Below are positions 4,501 to 16,500 of a stretch of DNA of 64,000 nucleotides, one piece after another. The stretch spans positions 124,001-188,000 of the forward strand of contig JBBELK010001058.1 of NCBI GenBank assembly GCA_037783545.1, given 5' to 3'. The translations under genes and the position numbers were made by a program. This DNA is from Henricia sp. BOLD:AAB3569. Lineage: Eukaryota; Echinodermata; Asteroidea; Spinulosida; Echinasteridae. The first letter of the stretch is position 1, and every line of letters starts with the position of its first letter. The notes under the pieces are model-generated. The model had not been told where the DNA came from and made no database searches. It saw only the letters and a list, made by a program, of their open reading frames with translations.

Positions 4501-7500
4501 ATTAGGTGTAACGGTGGACACCAAATGTCACACTTTTGGACCCCTAATTTATAGAAAGACCCTAAAACCTTCCTGTACATATCCCCTGTAACTGCTTTTA
4601 CATGTCCAGTAAACACTTTTCATTGCTCTCATGTGATTTTTTTTCTTTCAAATTTAAATTTAAACTAACAGAGCCAGGTCGACAAACGCACATCTACGGA
4701 GATGACTTTCTGGTTGTCGTGCCACTAGATGAGAGCGAACCAGAAACGGGCTCCTTGCTTCAGATTGCGTGCATGGACTGTGGCGACAGGTATAGACCCT
4801 TTGCACTGGCGGCCATGACCATGTAGATCCACAAAGTGCCTTCTCATGCATGATGCATGGTGACAATGTGACTGCCCCCTGTCATGGCCGCACATGCAAA
4901 TGATCTATTTACCATAAATCAGCACTGAAAATTCAACTTAACAGACTTAGGGGTGATTTACTCTGAAATTTAGTTTTGTTGATTGAAGTACTTTGTTTTC
5001 TTCTTTTCTTATTTTAAACTACAACTGATACAAATAATGAATCTTACTAGCTTATTTAAGATTGCCGTCCTCACAAAGGTAATGTTGATGGCCAGATCTT
5101 AAAGTTAGAACACATCATTGGTAGGCCTAATCTTGAAAATCCGAAATTTTCACAGATTTACACATTACTTACACAATATAAATAAGATGACGGTAGTAAA
5201 CTTCCCCTGAAATGGTTTTGTTTGAGGTGCTATAGTCCGAGAAATGAGCAAAACAATTGTTCTTCATCTCGCGAGACGTAAATTCACTTAGCCCCAAAAG
5301 CCACCTTGCCTCAAAACCACTGCGCCCTTACACCACTTCGTCCAAATACCACTTCGCTTCAAAAACACTTCGTGCACAGGCCGTGGTTCAGGGCGAAGTG
5401 TTACGTTCGAGGCGAAATGATTTCAGGGCGAAGTGACCGTAAAGCCTTTTTTGACTATTTTCTCAAAAGTTAGACACGGAGCTGACTTTTGCTCAGGTTG
5501 GTTTTAATCATTCATATCTTTAATCACACAGGGAGATAAAACCATTTGTAACGGTTTAACAATCATGTGTTCTGCCTTTAAATTGTGTTAAAGAGGTAAC
5601 TACATGTACGTGTATTGAATAAGTAATAGGTTTTAATTCTGAATAGGCACAATTTTTCTACCTTATTAAATATGCATGATGGTCACATTAGCAGTCAAGT
5701 GCACACATTGTACACCGAATGCCCTCAACTAGTACTTATAGCCCTGCATCACCATGAGTCAGGCATTACTCCTGAAGATAAACAGAGCACGCTGTTCGAA
5801 ACGTTGAGTTCACACTCACCGGTTCTTTTCAGAACCACACATATACAAAAGAGATTCACATGGTGCTACCGCAAACCCTTATACAAGTCAAGACAAAGAT
5901 TTAAACTTGATTCCAGGGGCCGATTTCACTAACGCTTTGCGATGATCGCTAATGCCCAAATCAATCGCTAAACTCGAAATCCATCGCAACTTTGCGATCA
6001 ACTTCAAAGAGCGATTTCACAAAAAAATTAGTTTTTTCGCTAGTTGTTATTTAGCGATGAATATTTAGCGACGACTAATTTGTCATCGTAAATGGAAACA
6101 TTCATCGCTAAAATACAATTTCGCGCCATTTGTTTAGTATTTTCAGTGTGTCTCGAAATGGCGTTTCAGTTGTACATAAACAACGCAAGAGCATTACAGA
6201 GAGCGAGAGGGTTTTCAGGGACAGGACAAATCCTCTGGATTCATAGTGACAAAAAGATGCACAAATATTATCGGTTTACGCGGAATGGCGTCATGAGAAT
6301 TATTGACATTTGCAACCGTTGAAGTATTTGTGGCTTTCAAGTTTTACGCTATGCTGCTTTTATTCCACAACATCCGATCATGGCATATTATTATTATTAT
6401 TATTATTTATTCGGCCAATACATCAACAAAAAAAACAAAAAAACAAGAGCACACAAATTACAGGCTGTGAACAATAAACAAAAGATACAAAAGAAAGCGC
6501 AATTTACGATGTAATACTGAATAATGCAGAGAAAATAGACAGGAGTGAACTAGGACAAAACAGTCCAAGCCGGCCAGGGTAAGCAAAAGTGAACCTAAAC
6601 ACTGTAGCCCTAAAGCCTGCTTACCCAAGCTTGATCTGTTCACATAAAGAGACACATATAAATATTTTGTAAATTAATAAAACATAGAAAAAAATATATA
6701 TATTTATATAACGGCAGATTAACTTGTGGATAAAATAAGGTGTTACAGAAAAATGCAATTAAAATGATATTTAGTACGAAAAAAAAAAATCAAAGTGATA
6801 TGTGTGTGGTCAGGCAAATACATTTAAATGTAATGAATGAAATTAGAATAACAAATTGGCAAGAATGTGGAATAAACATATTAAACACTCATTTGTTTTT
6901 TTTTTGTTTTTTTTTTTGTTTTTTAAATACCACAGGAAATATTGTACTAAAGTGTGACGTCAGTTGCCATGGCAATTGGGTCTAAACACGTCCACCGGTA
7001 TAGCACAGGAAAACAGTTCACTGGATTCAGTGTAGACCCAACAACCATGGCAACACACGAAGGGTGACGTATTCACTTTAGTAGTCTATTGGCAAAACAC
7101 AAAACACAAACACTTCGAGTAAACAAGTAAACATTCAGAAAAGACCAAGGAAAGAACAAACAAACACAAACACCAACAAGTCAAAGTCGAAAACAATTCA
7201 CTTCCAGTACCCCTATCCCTCCCCCCTCGCACCTCCCCCTACCCCCACTGCACCCCTCGCCCACCCTTCCCCTTTCCCTCCCACCACCCAAACCCCACAC
7301 CCCCCCACAGAGCCGCTCCCCCAAGACCCGCCCCCCTCCCCCCACAAGAAACAAACAAACAGCCCAACAAACAAACATCAACAACCCAAAAAACAAACAA
7401 ACAAAACGCAACAACAACAATGGGAATGAGTGAAGATTTATCCTAGATCCTGAAAGTAGCTAGACAAGGTTTTGTTGAATGAATTGAAGCTGTCCATGAT

Positions 7501-10500
7501 AACAGAGTCTCTGATATGTGAGGGAAGGCTGCTCCAGATCCGTGGGAATGAATGAGTGATGGAGTTCTTAAGGGCAAGTGTTCTGGCATACTGGTGGATG
7601 AAAACGAGATGATCCTGGTGGCGCGTGTTTACAGTTAAGTTATCATGAATCGAATGACAGTCAATAACTCGAAATAGGGACTTCATAACAAATGTGATTG
7701 CTTGCTTGTCACGTCTGTTCCCTAAGGACGTCCAGTTGAGGGCTCGAAGTCTTTCCTCATAAGACATAGACCCCCTTGCAACCTTTAAGCACATCCTGCT
7801 GGCACGGCGCTGGACCCTCTCCAGTTTGGATTTGTCGACCGCGGTGTATGGGGACCAGGCTGGCAAACCATATTCCAGCACTGGTAGCACAAGGGATTTG
7901 TAGAGGGATGCAATGGCCTTTGTTGACGCACCACCTGCCACTTGCCATATGAAGCCTAATGTTCGGTTGGCTTTCGAAACAACCGTGTTGATGTGGTTAG
8001 TCCAGGTCAGGGTACTGTTGATAGTAATACCAAGGTATTTGTGTGTTGTAGTGATGCTGAGAGGAGTGCCGTGGAGGGTGTAAACTGGTGGTTCCACTGG
8101 TTTCCTCGCTCTTGTCATGTGCAGTACTTTTGTCTTCTTTTTGTTGATCTGCATGCCGTTCATTGTACTCCATCTGCCAAGTTCAGTGAGGTCTGCTTGG
8201 AGGGCAAGCTCATCATCTGGTGACTGGATTGGTTGGTAAATAATTGTATCATCGGCAAATAACAGGACGTTTGTCGACAGGTTGTGGGAAATGTCATTCA
8301 CGAAGAGGTTGAAAAGCAAAGGGCCTAGGACGCTTCCTTGTGGGACTCCGGATGTTACTGGGGCCCAGTCCGAACAGCAACCGCGATACATAACACGCTG
8401 CCTTCGGCCAATCAAGAAGGATTTAATCCATGCCCAGGTTTGTCCACGGATGTTGTAATTACTTGCAATTTTTTCAAGCAGGGTGTGGTGAGGCATGACG
8501 TCAAAAGCCTTGCTGAAATCGAGGAAGATTATGTCGATGCGAGGAGGACGCGGTCTATCGAGTATGGTTGCCCAGTCAGAGATTGCATTTGTAAGTTGGG
8601 TGACGCAGGATCGATGTGCAGTGAAGCCGTGTTGTTTGGGGTTTGCAAGGCAAAGTGAGGTGATATGTTCATTGATGTTCTCTCCCACGGCTTTTTCAAG
8701 AACTTTGCAGATGACCGAAGTCAATGCGACTGGACGGTAGTTTTGGATGTTGGTGCGCTTACCAGACTTAAACACTGGTGATATTTGACTAAGTTTCCAG
8801 TCCATAGGGAGGTAACCGGTTGAAAGCGAGGAGTTCATTATTCGTAGGAGTGGAGGTGCAAGTGTTGTGGCCATTGCTCGTATTAATGTAGACGAGATGC
8901 CATCACATCCTGGAGCTTTGTGTGGGTTGAGATTGAGCAGAGTTTTCCGAAGCCATCCAAGCTTAACTGAGATAGGGGAAAGTTCAGGTATTGGCATGGA
9001 ACAAGGGGGCGGAGTCAGTGGAGGTGGTGTGGGCGGTGACTGAACTGAGTGAGTGAGTGAGTGAGTTTGGAGTTTAACGCCATGCCGGCATCAGTGGCCA
9101 TATTCATGGCGGGATCATGTTAATATATAAAACGCTTGGTTTTAATTAAAAATAATTAAATCATGTAAGTTGTGGAAAATATATGATCTTGGAATCAGTT
9201 GTATAGATATCAAGTGATATATTTCAATAAGATTATAGAAACATTGTATATAAGTACTACATGGATTCTGGGCAGTTTTCCAAGGGAATCCCCAGGAGGC
9301 CGGTTATAGAGGATCCCCCAGACACACGGTACCGTGTCTAAATGGTCCCGCAAGGCCGGCCGTTTCCCTTGCAGTTTAAGGGCCCGGGCCCCGCCGGTAT
9401 TTTTACAGGTCCGCTAACCTCCGGGTGATGAAGGGACAATGGTACCGAGTGTCTGGTCAATCCTCCACACCCCGTCCCCAGAACAAATAGGGGTCCCTGT
9501 TTCACCGTCCAGTGAAGATCAACCATGAAGTAAAAAATAAATGATATATTCAACAAAATTGAAGGAACGTTAAAAAGTATAGTTTACATGAGTGGGTTTT
9601 ATTTCAGGGAAATCAACCTTGGGGCAGAATAATATCTTGTCTCGCCTGGGCGAGCAAACCCCAGGATGAGTCCCTAATTAATGTTGTTTGAAAAAGTAAA
9701 GAATGAAGTAGAGTTTTACAAAATGTGGTAGAGTTGGGATGATTTGAGGAAGTCAATGATAATACTAGGGTTTATGTTGAAGAGATCTTTCAGTGTAGTG
9801 CAAGTAAAGTATTGTTGTCTAACTGGAGCTAAGTCGATGCAGTCGATAAGTAAATGATGTATGGTAAGAGAGCTGTCGCAGGGGATACATTGGGGTTGTG
9901 GTTCTGATTTTAACAGAAATGAGTGGGTTAATATGGAGTGGCCTATGCGGCATCTGGTGAGAACAACCTGGTCTCGACGAGATAGATGTAAATAAGTTTT
10001 CCAAAATCCAGTATTTGGTTGAATAGAGTAGAGCTTGTTAAAGGTACAAGTTGTCCATGATTCCTGCCAGATGCGTTGTATGTAGGAAAAAATGGGAAAT
10101 CTTAAGTCGTTATAAGGTATGGTATTAGGCGTAATTGACAATCTTAAAGCTTGCTTGGCGAGAGCATCAGCTTCATCGTTTCCTTTTAAGCCAACATGGC
10201 TGGGAATCCAGCAGAATAGGACATCAACATTTTGTACATGAAGTTCTGTCAATTTATCGAGGGCTTCTATTAAGTAAGGGTGATTTATATTTCGATTTCT
10301 TAAGGATTGTAGGCTTGAGAGTGAATCACTGAAGATGATGAAGTTTTTGTTGTCAAGCGAGTCTATCATATCTAGAGCTAGTAGGATAGCCTTGAGTTCG
10401 GCAGTGTAGATTGAAGCATAATTTGGTAGGCGAACACTCCGTGTGTACTTCCCACTGACAGCAGCAGAGGAGACTTTCTCATCATCTTTTGAACCGTCAG

Positions 10501-13500
10501 TGAAGATTGATGTATGGTCTGGGAACAAAGTACGGAGTTCAAAAAATTCATTTTGAAAGACGGATGGGGAGGTTTCCGTCTTTTTGTATTTGGATATATG
10601 TAAAAAGACCTGTGGAGAATAGCATTCCCAGGGTGGGGGGACATCTACATAGTTAGTTGTTATGTTCTGCAAGTTAAGTTTGGATGCTTGTATGTGGGGC
10701 CGAAGTCGGAGGCCGAGTGGTTTGATGACCTTTGGTTTAGCAGTATATATGTGTTCATATTTGGGATGAAAGACACATTGGTAGGCAGGGTTTGATGGGT
10801 TGGCTGCTAATTTGATGATATATTGTAAAGAAAGTTTGGTGCGTCGTAACTCAAGAGGAGGTTCATCTGCCGTAATGTAAAGGCTTTCGATGGGTGACGT
10901 TCTGAAAGCACCAAAAGCCAGACGTAAACCTTGATGATGGATCGTGTTTAGTTGTTTCAGATAGGATTTAGGAGCAGAGCCATAAACGACACTGCCATAA
11001 TCGAGTTTAGAACGGATAAGAGATCTGTATAAATGTAAAAGAACTGAGCATTCTGCACCCCAGTCTTTATTAGCAACGGCTTTAAGGATATCTAGAGCTT
11101 TAAGACATCTAGTCTTAAGGGATCGAATGTGGGGTAAAAAGTTAAGTTTTGAATCAAAGATTATTCCAAGAAATTTTGTTTCGCTGAATACTTTGATTTT
11201 GTTAGTTCCAAGAAAGAGTTCAGGGTCGAAGTGAGCATTCCTCAGTCGACAGAAATGCATGCAGACAGTTTTATGAGTGGAAAATTTGAAGCCATTTTCA
11301 TTGGTCCATTTCTGTAGTTTGTTGAGAGTTAGTTGGAGTTGACGTTCAATGGTGTTCATGCGGCTAGCTCGGTAGCAGATTAAGAGGTCGTCAACATACA
11401 GTGCTGGTGTGATGCCATCCTGTACTGTCTGGATTATTGAATTAATTTTGATGCTGAACAGTGTGACCGATAGGATGCTACCCTGTGGGACGCCCATTTC
11501 TTGTTCATGAGAAGTTGAGAATGTGGAGCCAATTTTCACTTTAAATTGTCTGTCGATTAAAAAATCAGCAATAAAAAGGGGTAATTTGCCACGAAGCCCC
11601 ATAGAGTGAAGATCTCTCATTACACCATACTTCCATGTAGTATCATATGCCTTCTCCAAGTCAAAGAAAATGCAAACAGCATGTTCTTTTTTCAGGAAAG
11701 CATCTCTGACAAATGATTCCAATCGAATTAGGTGATCTGTTGTGCTGCGATTTTTCCGGAAACCACACTGATATTCTGAGATGAGTCCATTGGTTTCGAG
11801 ATACCACACAAGTCGATCGTTCACCATTCTCTCCATTGTTTTGCACAGACAAGAGGTCAGAGCTATTGGTCTGTAATTTGAAGGATTTGTATGGTCTTTA
11901 CCAGGTTTGGGTATAGGTATGATGGTTGCTTGTTTCCATGAAGTAGGGAAGTCACCAGTATCCCAGATATTATTAAATATGTGAAGAACGGTCAGAAGAC
12001 ATTTCTCAGGGAGGTGTTTAAGAAGTTGGTAATGTATTCTGTCAGGACCTGGTGCTGTGTCGTGTGATTTTGAAAGGGATGTGAGGAGTTCTTCAAGTAT
12101 AAATGGGCGGTTGTATGTTTCTGTGTTGCGAGATGAAAAGTTGAGACGAACGTTTTCTGCACGCTCTTTATTGCGCTGAAACTCGTGTGAGTGGTTGTTA
12201 GCGGAGGAGTTTTGTTGAAATGTGGCGGCTAACTCTTCTGCTATTTCAGTCTTGGTGGTGAGCATTTCATCACTTCTGTTTAAATGTTTAACGCCGGGTC
12301 TGGTCTTTTGACCATTCATTTGTGACTGAACTGAGGAGAAGAACTTGTTGAATGCTTCGCAGATGTCAGTGGGTTTGTGGAGGAGTGAATCATGTGTCCG
12401 AAAAGCAGGAGGGCATTGTGACTTTTTCTGGTCCCTTACGAAGCACCAAAAGCTGCGCTTGTTATCTTTCAGCAGAAAGAGGTTGTTGACGTGTTTCCAG
12501 TAGGCAAATTTAGTTAGGTTTTTCACTTTGTTACGAACTTGTTTGTAGTGTTCCCATGATGTGCTAGATCCAGATTGCTTAGCCTTAACAAACAACTTAT
12601 GCTTTAGCCGGATGAGCTTTTTTAGTTCTGGCGATATCCATGGAGATAAACCACGGCGGCATTTCTTCCTTGAGATGCAGTCTCGAATAACAGCATCCAG
12701 TATGTCCCTGAAACCGTCCCATGAGGCTTCAGGGTCGGTGTCGTCCAAGAAAGCTGACCATGGGGTAAGGTGAAAAAGCATCTCCATGTGGTTGAAATCG
12801 GCCTTTCTATACTGTAGAAATGAACGGATAACTTGAGGTTGAGGAGCCTTGTTTGAAGAGAGCGTGAAATGAACTGCGTGGTGATCACTACTGACTGGAT
12901 TAGCTATAGATTCAACTGACGTGAATTTCTCTGGTCGATTCGTGAAGATGAGATCAATGGTAGTTCCACTTGATGGTGAGTCACGAGAAGGACGAGTCAC
13001 ATCCTCTACGAGTTGTGTGAGACCAATGGAGTCGGTTATTTCCTTCAGTTTGACAGTGAGAGCCGTCGATTCGTCTTCCCAATTGATGTTAAAGTCGCCA
13101 AGAAGGATCACGCCTTCATAGCATGGGAAATCCGATTGCACTACGTCACATGTCTCCTGTAGGCTATCGAAGAAACTATTGTCGGAATTTGGGGGTCGAT
13201 AAGCAATGCCTACCAGCCACTTGGTGCGCTTGAAGGTCAAAGACACCCAAGTTAGCTCAATGGTGTCAGAATTGAGGTGGTCGAGATGTGTGGGCAAAAG
13301 CGAGTCATTGACTACAGCCATTAAACCACCGCCACGACTGTTGCGATCACGGCGAATTGTAGAATAGCCGGGCAGAGATGCAAGAAAATCAGTGTCCTCG
13401 GATGACATCCAGGATTCGGTGATGAGAACCATATCTAGTGGATTGAGTTCAAGAAAGGATTGGAGATCTTGTTGTTTGTTACGAATACTTCGGGCGTTTA

Positions 13501-16500
13501 GGAGTATACCCGAGACGGTATTCTTTGGCCGATGGTTGGAGGGTGAAACTGCAGGAGGGCTGGATGTGTCTGGCGGGGGTTGAGTACTGGTGAAACTAGC
13601 AGGCATGACAGAGTCGTTGAATAATTCAGAAAATGATGTGTCGCTACATGTTGAAAATGGCAGGCTTTGATGAGTGCAGGATGGGCAGAACCAGTCAACT
13701 GTGCTTGAGATAAGTCTTTTGTAGAGAGTAATTGACATATCTGGAATACATTTTTGATGAGAGTACTGCAGGCATTCCTCACAAAGAACAGATCTTTGAT
13801 TTCTTTTAACTGGCTTGCTGCAATTTCCACATGGGTCCTTCACAGGGCCAGGATTGCTCTCAATGTCCCCACAAACAGTAAGTGGAATGTTAAATGTAGC
13901 AAAACAGTTTGCATAGTAGCTAACTGGGGCATGGCTGAACTTACTTCTCCCAAGTTTCTTGTTGATCCGCCATGTTAAATAGGGTATGGTGTAAATACAC
14001 ACACATCCATGTGTGTGTACACACATGTGTGTATGCCGTGGACAAAGGCTGGACCACACTGTACAATGGGTGGCATCATGATATGAATGGAGTCGGTCAC
14101 GCGTGAAACTTGATGCTTGAAGAGTTGTTTGGAAGGGCTGAAGTACTGGCACAAATTCATGCAAAATTCCACTTTCCTGGGTCGAAATTCCATCAGAAAA
14201 GGAGCTAGGAGGATCAGTGGCACAAACTCTATCAGTTGATATAAAATTTACATGATGTAGTGACCAAAAGACAGCAAAAATATAGAACATTTGTAGAGCT
14301 GAACACAGAGGTTGTTGACTGGCCGCCATGTAGCTAGTGTCTGCAGAATCGTGCATCGTGCATCGAGTCACTGAATTTATGGTTGTTTACGCGTTACTAT
14401 AAGCGATCCAATAAATTTATTTATAATTAATACTCATCGCTATTGCGACGGCTTTAGTGAAATGCAAAATCCATCGCCATCGCAATAACGATGGATTTGA
14501 ATTTAGCGATCATTCTAACGATGATCGCAAAATATTGTGTTAGTGAAATCGGCCCCAGTTCAGATTATAGCTAACATTTTTTATTTACTGGTATATTTTC
14601 CCCTAGTTCCTAGTTTCCCAATTTTTCTATCCAACCTCTGACTCAATAAATAAACTGACTCCGAGTCAATAAATCAAAGTCAGAAATTACAGTTTGTTTC
14701 AGTAAAACTTGCATAGGGTCACGATTTACTGGTCACAATTTCTCCCCCCAGCTTGGAGGCAAGTGGAAACATCAAGCTACTGGAGACAAATTTCACGGTA
14801 ATTTTCACCGCTGGGCCGACCGTCTCTGTGTCTCTTGACGACTTTTCACCGTTTTGGACCAATAAAACAGTTGCCAATCTCGTCATTTCATCAGACTTGA
14901 ACATCACCGTTACAATCATTCTAAAAATCGGTGGAACTCTCAACGCCTACACAGCAATTCCTTCACAATCTCTGGACAAGTACTATCCTGTTGCTTCATA
15001 CGGACGGCAGGAGGACTTATCCGAGCTTATCGCGGTTGCGATTAGAAACAAAACAAACATCACTTATAAACCATTTGGTGAAAAGCAAAAACCATATAAA
15101 AAAAACAGAGGTGAGTGCCAGAGATTTCAGACCAAAGGAAGCTTTACTGGAGACGTGTTGGATGGAGACAAGCCAATTATTGGCATAGTTGGGACAAGGT
15201 GCCAATCCAGAAACCAAATATGTCCACGTTCATTGGAGCAGCTGTACCCACTGGTCTCACTCGGAACCAAATATGTTGCGGTGCCTGTTATTAACAATGA
15301 CATTAAAAAAGCAGCCAACGTGTTCCGTGCTGTAGCCGTGTGGAATAATACTACTCTTACGTGGTTTTCACGAAAGCATACACTGAACCATGGTACGGCG
15401 TATGATATCTCCCTAAACCAAACAGGGATTATTGAAGGCTCTAAACCTTTCATTCTCCTACACCATACCGAGTTGGTGACTCCAAGTCTTGACAATGCAA
15501 TCGTAACAATTCCACCGATGGAACAGTTCACGCGCAAGACATTCACATTCTCAACCTACCAAGCAGAAAACATAACAATCTATATCAGCATTATGGCTCC
15601 TTGCAAGGACATAAACAATATTATGCTGCAGCCTTCCGCAGGCGAGCCAGAGTCTTGTAAAACCACCACCAATGAACGGACGTTTTCATCCAGCAAACTC
15701 TGTGGCAACCTTTGCCGCCTGGATCCAGGCACATACACCATAGGACCTACACCTCAATCTCCACAGGCCAAGTACTCGGCTGTGTTGTACGGAGTCAATA
15801 ATCAGGCAAACTTTGCACATATTCTCGCTAGTGAACTCTACCAAGTTACTTGCAGCGTGGAACCGTCTCAAAAAGTTAATCTGTGCCCTGAATTTATACC
15901 CATTGAGCCCATCCACACTACGCCGACCCCCCAAGGCCAAACGACAGTCACCGCAGACAACCTTACTCCAACCAAGGGCACCCCAGCACCTACTTCAAGC
16001 AATGGCACAGGTAGGTATTGACCTTTATCAAAATGCATCCATCTTTGTCTTGTTCCCCATAGTACCCGTATGTGTCGGGCATGATCAGTGCTTTAGCATG
16101 TAATCTTCTGATGTTTTGAGAGAATCACTGTCCACGCTGCACACTTTGCTAATCACGCTACGTGTGTGTCATTGTGATGCACACTGAACAATTCCAACAC
16201 GGAGCCAAACTATTCTTCCTGAATGCTGCAAGCCTCACTTTGGTTACACTGATTTGAATGTACATGTATTAAAAAGTATTTTCCCATATATGGCTTGCAG
16301 GAAAAATAGTTTGGTCCCATGTTGAAATTGTTAATTATGTGCATCATAATGACACACGTGTAGCACGATCAATAAAACGTGCCACGCAGACAGTGATTCT
16401 CTCAAAAACAACAGTAGATAACACACACGGTCGCGCAGATGCACTGATCGTGCCCGACACGTACTATGGGGAACAAGACAAAGATGGACGCATCGTGATA

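Follow-up and report, generated by a model that had tools for sequence, protein, structure and literature searches.

A LINE nested in frame within a 2A- and PHD-bearing LINE in the sea star Henricia

Introduction

Odon et al. reportedly described, in 2013, 2A motifs in long interspersed nuclear elements (LINEs) of the APE type, lying near the N-terminus of the open reading frame (ORF). Here we analyze a stretch of DNA from the sea star Henricia sp. BOLD:AAB3569 (assembly GCA_037783545.1, contig JBBELK010001058.1, positions 124,001 to 188,000 of the forward strand), in which a long open frame on the minus strand brings together a 2A motif, a PHD finger, an endonuclease, a reverse transcriptase (RT), and an RNase H. 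This whole stretch of 64,000 nucleotides (nt) is referred to as the window, and all coordinates are positions within it unless another query is named. A preliminary description made from the letters alone took the frame for one intact LINE owning all of these parts. We find instead that the RT and RNase H belong to a second LINE (element B), a 5'-truncated copy that is almost certainly nested, in the same orientation, in the LINE carrying the 2A motif (element A). Because B is nested in A, as judged from the junction, a duplication, and empty sites, the open frame is a chance fusion of two LINEs, and its combination of parts is accidental.

Several described systems lie close to one or the other half. 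LINEs of the L2 and CR1 lineages often carry a PHD finger, and some of these elements apparently have a single ORF with an N-terminal PHD (PMC4120745). The terms "virus-like" and "translational recoding" are absent from the main text of that article, in which "APE-type non-LTR retrotransposons" (those without long terminal repeats) occurs once. A 2024 review states that non-LTR retrotransposons can contain 2A-like sequences (PMC11512398), and 2A-like signal sequences with a double role have been demonstrated in NLR proteins of sea urchins (PMC4981915). Target-site duplications measure 3 to 5 bp in L2, about as much in CR1, and 10 to 15 bp in Nimb-2 (PMC4245944).

Results

The frame runs for 1546 amino acids (aa) from an ATG at 14356 to a stop codon at 9716-9718, and it is indeed free of internal stops and furnished with the expected motifs, as the preliminary description held. 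From its N-terminus it encodes the 2A motif DIESNPGP (13844-13867, located by frame translation and pattern search), a PHD finger (13676-13831; Pfam PF00628, E 1.8e-4), an APE-type endonuclease (12881-13498; Exo_endo_phos, PF03372, E 5.3e-11), an RT domain (11159-11914; RVT_1, E 1.7e-35), and an RNase H domain (10145-10513; RNase_H, PF00075, E 6.9e-11), all on the minus strand. The last three exceed their curated Pfam cut-offs, and the PHD finger falls slightly under its own (21.9 versus 24 bits). Residues 1-678, comprising the N-terminal peptide, 2A, PHD, and endonuclease, belong to family A and the remainder, with RT and RNase H, to family B. The first ATG sits in a flanking repeat, R, and is not the start of A; counted from A's own ATG at 14329, the frame is 1537 aa long.

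That B lies within A is seen directly in the junctions, in the duplication at them, in filled and empty versions of the site, and in the relatives of each half. The genome searched was that of the single Henricia assembly (740.7 Mb in 2104 contigs). With the fused frame as a protein query (30 of 5205 candidates scored), the matches at 97 to 99% identity besides the window itself cover either residues 7-680 (C11, C139, and C33) or residue 671 onward (C103, C171, and C917). At C139 and C33 the RT part was matched further just downstream, at only 29% identity. A 301-bp nucleotide query laid across the A/B junction returned 43 candidates, and among the 40 that were scored, 23 matched the A side (ending at or before query position 159), 16 matched the B side (starting at 158-161), and the only one to span the junction was the window. 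The preliminary description had looked to near-identical copies with different flanks; these exist for each half separately and not for the whole.

Sequence of A gives way to B at 12322/12321, with the first B base (12321) falling within codon 679. Both ends of B carry a perfect 14-bp direct repeat (14/14 identical, spacing 3286 bp), which is the target-site duplication of B. Its upstream copy lies at 12322-12335, where the minus strand reads CTCAGTTCAGTCAC, and its downstream copy occupies 9036-9049 on the same strand; leaving out a 4-bp overlap with the tail (CTCA) reduces the duplication to 10 bp. All six long copies of A that were compared (L039-L044) run through the insertion site without B. 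Each aligns to the window in two stretches, one from about 14330 (14138 for L044) down to 12322 and the other leading leftward from 9053 or 9045; in the copy itself the two adjoin. The target letters are present once, exactly, and lead straight into the post-B sequence in four of these copies (L039, L040, L041, and L044); in L042 and L043 the target site has diverged.

The 5' part of A (12322-14330, minus strand), which holds the N-terminal peptide, 2A, PHD, and endonuclease behind its own ATG, is 99.75% identical to C11 and C139 and 98.5% identical to C33; against L039 and against L040 it shows 2 mismatches and one gap in 2008 nt. Because the copies at C11 and C139 are so nearly identical and have other flanks, the 2A, the PHD directly behind it, and the endonuclease are parts of one young LINE. 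The 3' part (6386-9035, minus strand) supplies A's own RT, a 3' untranslated region (UTR), and an (AAT)n tail, and is 99.1% identical to L039 and L040, where it is joined to the 5' part. Its RT domain (8020-8754; RVT_1, E 3.5e-35) lies in a 519-aa ORF at 7438-8997. The left edge of the element, previously set at 9047, is the end of B, and A continues to about 6386. An uninterrupted counterpart is found in L040, in which a single A ORF of 1200 aa encodes PHD (22 versus 24 bits, slightly under the cut-off), APE, and RT; Pfam gave no match to RNase H in this ORF. The A frame of L039 is interrupted within the RT.

Element B (9050-12321, minus strand) is a 5'-truncated copy comprising RT, RNase H, a 3' UTR, and an (ACTC)n tail. 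It is 99.7% identical to L075 (at C103), with 10 mismatches in 3276 nt. The native ORF of L075 (1227 aa) encodes APE, RT, and RNase H, and its own endonuclease lies upstream of the part shared with the window. Relatives at C103, C171, C577, C161, and C917 share the 3' end of B, within 4 nt of the query end at 9047. Nimb elements carry RNase H. The length of the duplication and a single ORF holding APE, RT, and RNase H would fit a Nimb- or I-like element, a candidate placement drawn from these traits. Intact-looking ORFs are present in copies of both families, and the insertions of A and B are both probably recent because of the near-identity of A to L039 and L040 and of B to L075.

A in turn is inserted in R, a high-copy repeat resembling a miniature inverted-repeat transposable element (MITE), which forms the third layer of the nest. 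One portion of R lies 3' of A (5913-6388) and matches all 23 R copies compared (L016-L038, from 33 R matches). The other lies 5' of A (14332-14558), includes the ATG at 14356, and is matched by the same 23 copies up to 14332 or 14331. The two portions stand only 3 to 14 nt apart in every one of these copies (letters inspected in 11), and the ends of R match each other weakly (73 to 76%) in inverted orientation. When 8900-14900 was scanned against Rfam at E values up to 1, the only match was U5-like, at 14389-14499 in R, and its 32.5 bits fell below the gathering score of 40.

We found no evidence against the nesting of B in A. A itself has no visible duplication in the window, a few bases of its target in R being missing instead; an insertion of the L2 or CR1 type would be expected to give 3 to 5 bp. 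The data come from a single assembly, so that an assembly error is formally possible. Such an artefact, joining two LINE families, is the better of the alternatives and still very improbable: both families have copies that are 99 to 100% identical, which is where misassembly happens, but a chance misjoin is not expected to produce a 14-bp target-site duplication, to place the tail of B exactly at one side of it, and to return to A immediately. Less probable again, to the point of being nearly negligible, is a genuine chimeric LINE made by template switching, in which the 2A-PHD-endonuclease part was joined to the RT-RNase H part and the product propagates as a unit. This would agree with the open frame, with the complete endonuclease and RT, and with a junction placed in the linker between them, but not with the duplication at the ends of B, the remainder of A directly downstream, or the empty sites in A copies, nor was a second copy of the junction found among the 40 candidates scored of 43. 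As an origin of the locus it is refuted by the duplication and the empty sites. A single intact LINE to which 2A, PHD, endonuclease, RT, and RNase H are all native, as first suggested by an unbroken frame with every motif, is dismissed by all of the evidence for nesting and by the absence of this combination from every other scored match of the protein and junction searches.

The 2A motif extends well beyond element A. The pattern DIExNPGP occurs at 48 sites in the genome against 0 in a reversed control, and DVExNPGP occurs at 29 against 2. Because these counts far exceed the controls, the motif is not a product of chance, and the 2A signal of the preliminary description is real. By eye, a PHD-like Cys/His cluster lies behind the 2A in seven of eight further loci picked from the 48 DIExNPGP sites, several of them related and some with stops; the exception is L080. 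A PHD finger directly after the 2A, earlier considered notable, is therefore not unusual in this genome. Variations on the arrangement were also seen: L001 (950-1550) has an N-terminus like that of A and a 2A, but the endonuclease follows this 2A with no PHD in between, and L078 has by eye two PHD-like Cys/His clusters in tandem after its 2A at 581.

The N-terminal peptide of A comprises 162 residues up to the end of the 2A, ahead of the PHD. We compared A (L040) with a related family, A2 (L042), and found 55 changes in 136 codons of the N-terminal part, with a ratio of nonsynonymous to synonymous rates (dN/dS) of 1.14; because the A2 copies are no longer intact, part of this change is neutral decay. 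Over the 26-codon stretch that closes with the 2A, no change is nonsynonymous and 2 are synonymous. The 60-codon PHD stretch has a dN/dS of 0.27, and in the next 180 codons it is 0.40, a value inflated by an apparent frameshift of L042 at the end of that stretch. When the comparison is with more distant families, the 26-codon stretch shows 8.5 (L077) and 15.3 (L079) nonsynonymous changes, which lie before the motif. The N-terminal dN/dS between A and L079 is 0.49, at a dS of 1.3 that is near saturation. The possibility that the N-terminal peptide is under strong purifying selection was considered and is not supported, given the value of 1.14 between A and A2.

Part of the peptide of A (HTHMCVHTHG) is encoded by a microsatellite-like stretch. 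The peptide opens with MAASQQPLCSAL, a start that is similar in A, A2, L079, and L001. Near the N-terminus lies a hydrophobic, signal-like stretch, LCSALQMFYIFAVFW (14264-14308, minus strand), with a mean hydropathy of 1.75. With 2000 shuffles of the same residues for each peptide, the hydrophobic start did not stand out from shuffled versions in A (reached by 213/2000 for L040 and 129/2000 for L041) or in L078 (264/2000). It did so in A2 (1/2000), L077 (1), L001 (4), and L079 (14), and more weakly in L081 (30). By analogy, the peptide of A may be a disposable leader, and possibly a signal sequence, split off by the 2A, a suggestion that is weak for A itself.

In three 2A LINE families (A, L079, and L001), the 5' end of the element lies 0 to 7 nt upstream of an ATGGCG start codon. 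Copies of A begin 0 to 2 nt ahead of ATGGCGGC, whose ATG is at 14329; the starts fall at 14329-14331 in five of the six copies, L044 starting at 14138. The L079 family (minus strand) has CAAGATGGCGGA around its ATG and a leader of about 4 to 6 nt: the ATG lies at 114 of the query, copies start at 108, 110, and, in one case, 143, and elsewhere in the genome copies of the flanking repeat end at or before 107. The L001 family has AAAGATGGCGAC and a leader of about 3 to 7 nt. Here the ATG is at query position 129 (locus position 1078) and four copies start at 122, 123, 124, and 126, with two more element matches being short internal pieces (40 of 1304 candidates scored). L077 is probably a fourth such family, as the alignments of four distant relatives (67 to 70% identity) begin exactly at ATGGCGTCC, position 126; three of the four have equal scores and so probably represent one family, and in L077 itself the ATG of ATGGCGTCC is out of frame with the 2A. 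In L081 the sole other long copy (97%) matches the entire query.

A different picture was obtained for the L078 family, in which three further copies match the whole 600-nt query, the ATG is at 302, and no ATGGCG occurs in the locus. A 5' end resembling the translation initiator of short 5' UTRs (TISU) is ruled out by this family as a rule for all 2A LINEs.

Beside the nest, the window at 14780-16021 by eye resembles a host gene that may be related to adhesive proteins of the IgGFc-binding type.

Discussion

The layers of the locus are best explained by a nested insertion. A young family-A LINE first inserted into the MITE-like repeat R. A family-B LINE later entered the linker of A between endonuclease and RT, presumably by target-primed reverse transcription, in the orientation of A, with its copy cut short at the 5' side inside B's own linker and with a 14-bp duplication made in the process. 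The frame of B happens to continue that of A, giving an accidental open fusion; such in-frame entry should be met in one of three same-orientation insertions. In A itself, ribosome skipping at the 2A would part the N-terminal peptide from the protein that carries PHD, endonuclease, and RT.

These results remove a false "all-in-one" LINE from consideration. They also illustrate how a nested insertion that stays in frame mimics a novel combination of domains and can mislead automatic annotation. In the literature searched, no case of a nested, in-frame, chimeric LINE of this kind was found among the titles listed. What is left standing is a young LINE family that carries a 2A and a PHD and has copies that look intact.

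The 5' ends of these families invite comparison with a known class of start sites. The TISU consensus places the AUG within SAASATGGCGGC. The ATG context in families A, L079, and L001, and probably in L077, resembles the TISU/YY1 arrangement, with almost no leader. TISU is bound by YY1, contributes both to the transcription of mRNAs with very short leaders and to their translation, and is associated with a 5' UTR of 4 to 45 nt (PMC2518114). The leader of 0 to 2 nt in A is shorter than this. As a tentative joint reading, which we think doubtful as a whole, a 5'-terminal (CAAG)ATGGCGGC-like element in several 2A LINE families might serve as a YY1-like initiator and as a TISU-like, nearly leaderless start, behind which a hydrophobic, signal-like peptide is released by the 2A, so that a disposable leader places the RNA and protein of the element. 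If true, the ATGGCG-proximal 5' ends would bear on how LINEs carry their promoters and on how translation starts with almost no leader. No treatment of TISU, YY1, and a retrotransposon together was found in the literature searched, and the titles and abstract openings listed yielded nothing on point for TISU or short 5' UTRs with transposable elements or for YY1 with LINEs.

Compared with known systems, element B is like the Nimb-type LINEs in the length of its target-site duplication, 10 to 14 bp against the 10 to 15 bp given for zebrafish Nimb-2 (PMC4245944). The N-terminal part of A recalls the sea urchin NLR proteins in combining an N-terminal 2A with a signal-like stretch. The two differ in layout: in the sea urchin, signal and 2A form one short N-terminal oligopeptide before the NLR proteins (PMC4981915), whereas in A the cleavage point comes after 162 residues, and the stretch is only presumed to act as a signal. 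With the 2A-bearing APE-type LINEs reportedly described by Odon et al., A shares a 2A near the N-terminus of its ORF. By domain order, A would be a member both of these elements and of the single-ORF PHD LINEs, namely L2 subgroup 4 and CR1 subgroup 6 (PMC4120745). A and the latter have in common one ORF, a PHD towards the N-terminus, APE, and RT, with no RNase H found; unlike those elements as described there, A carries a 2A and 162 residues ahead of its PHD.

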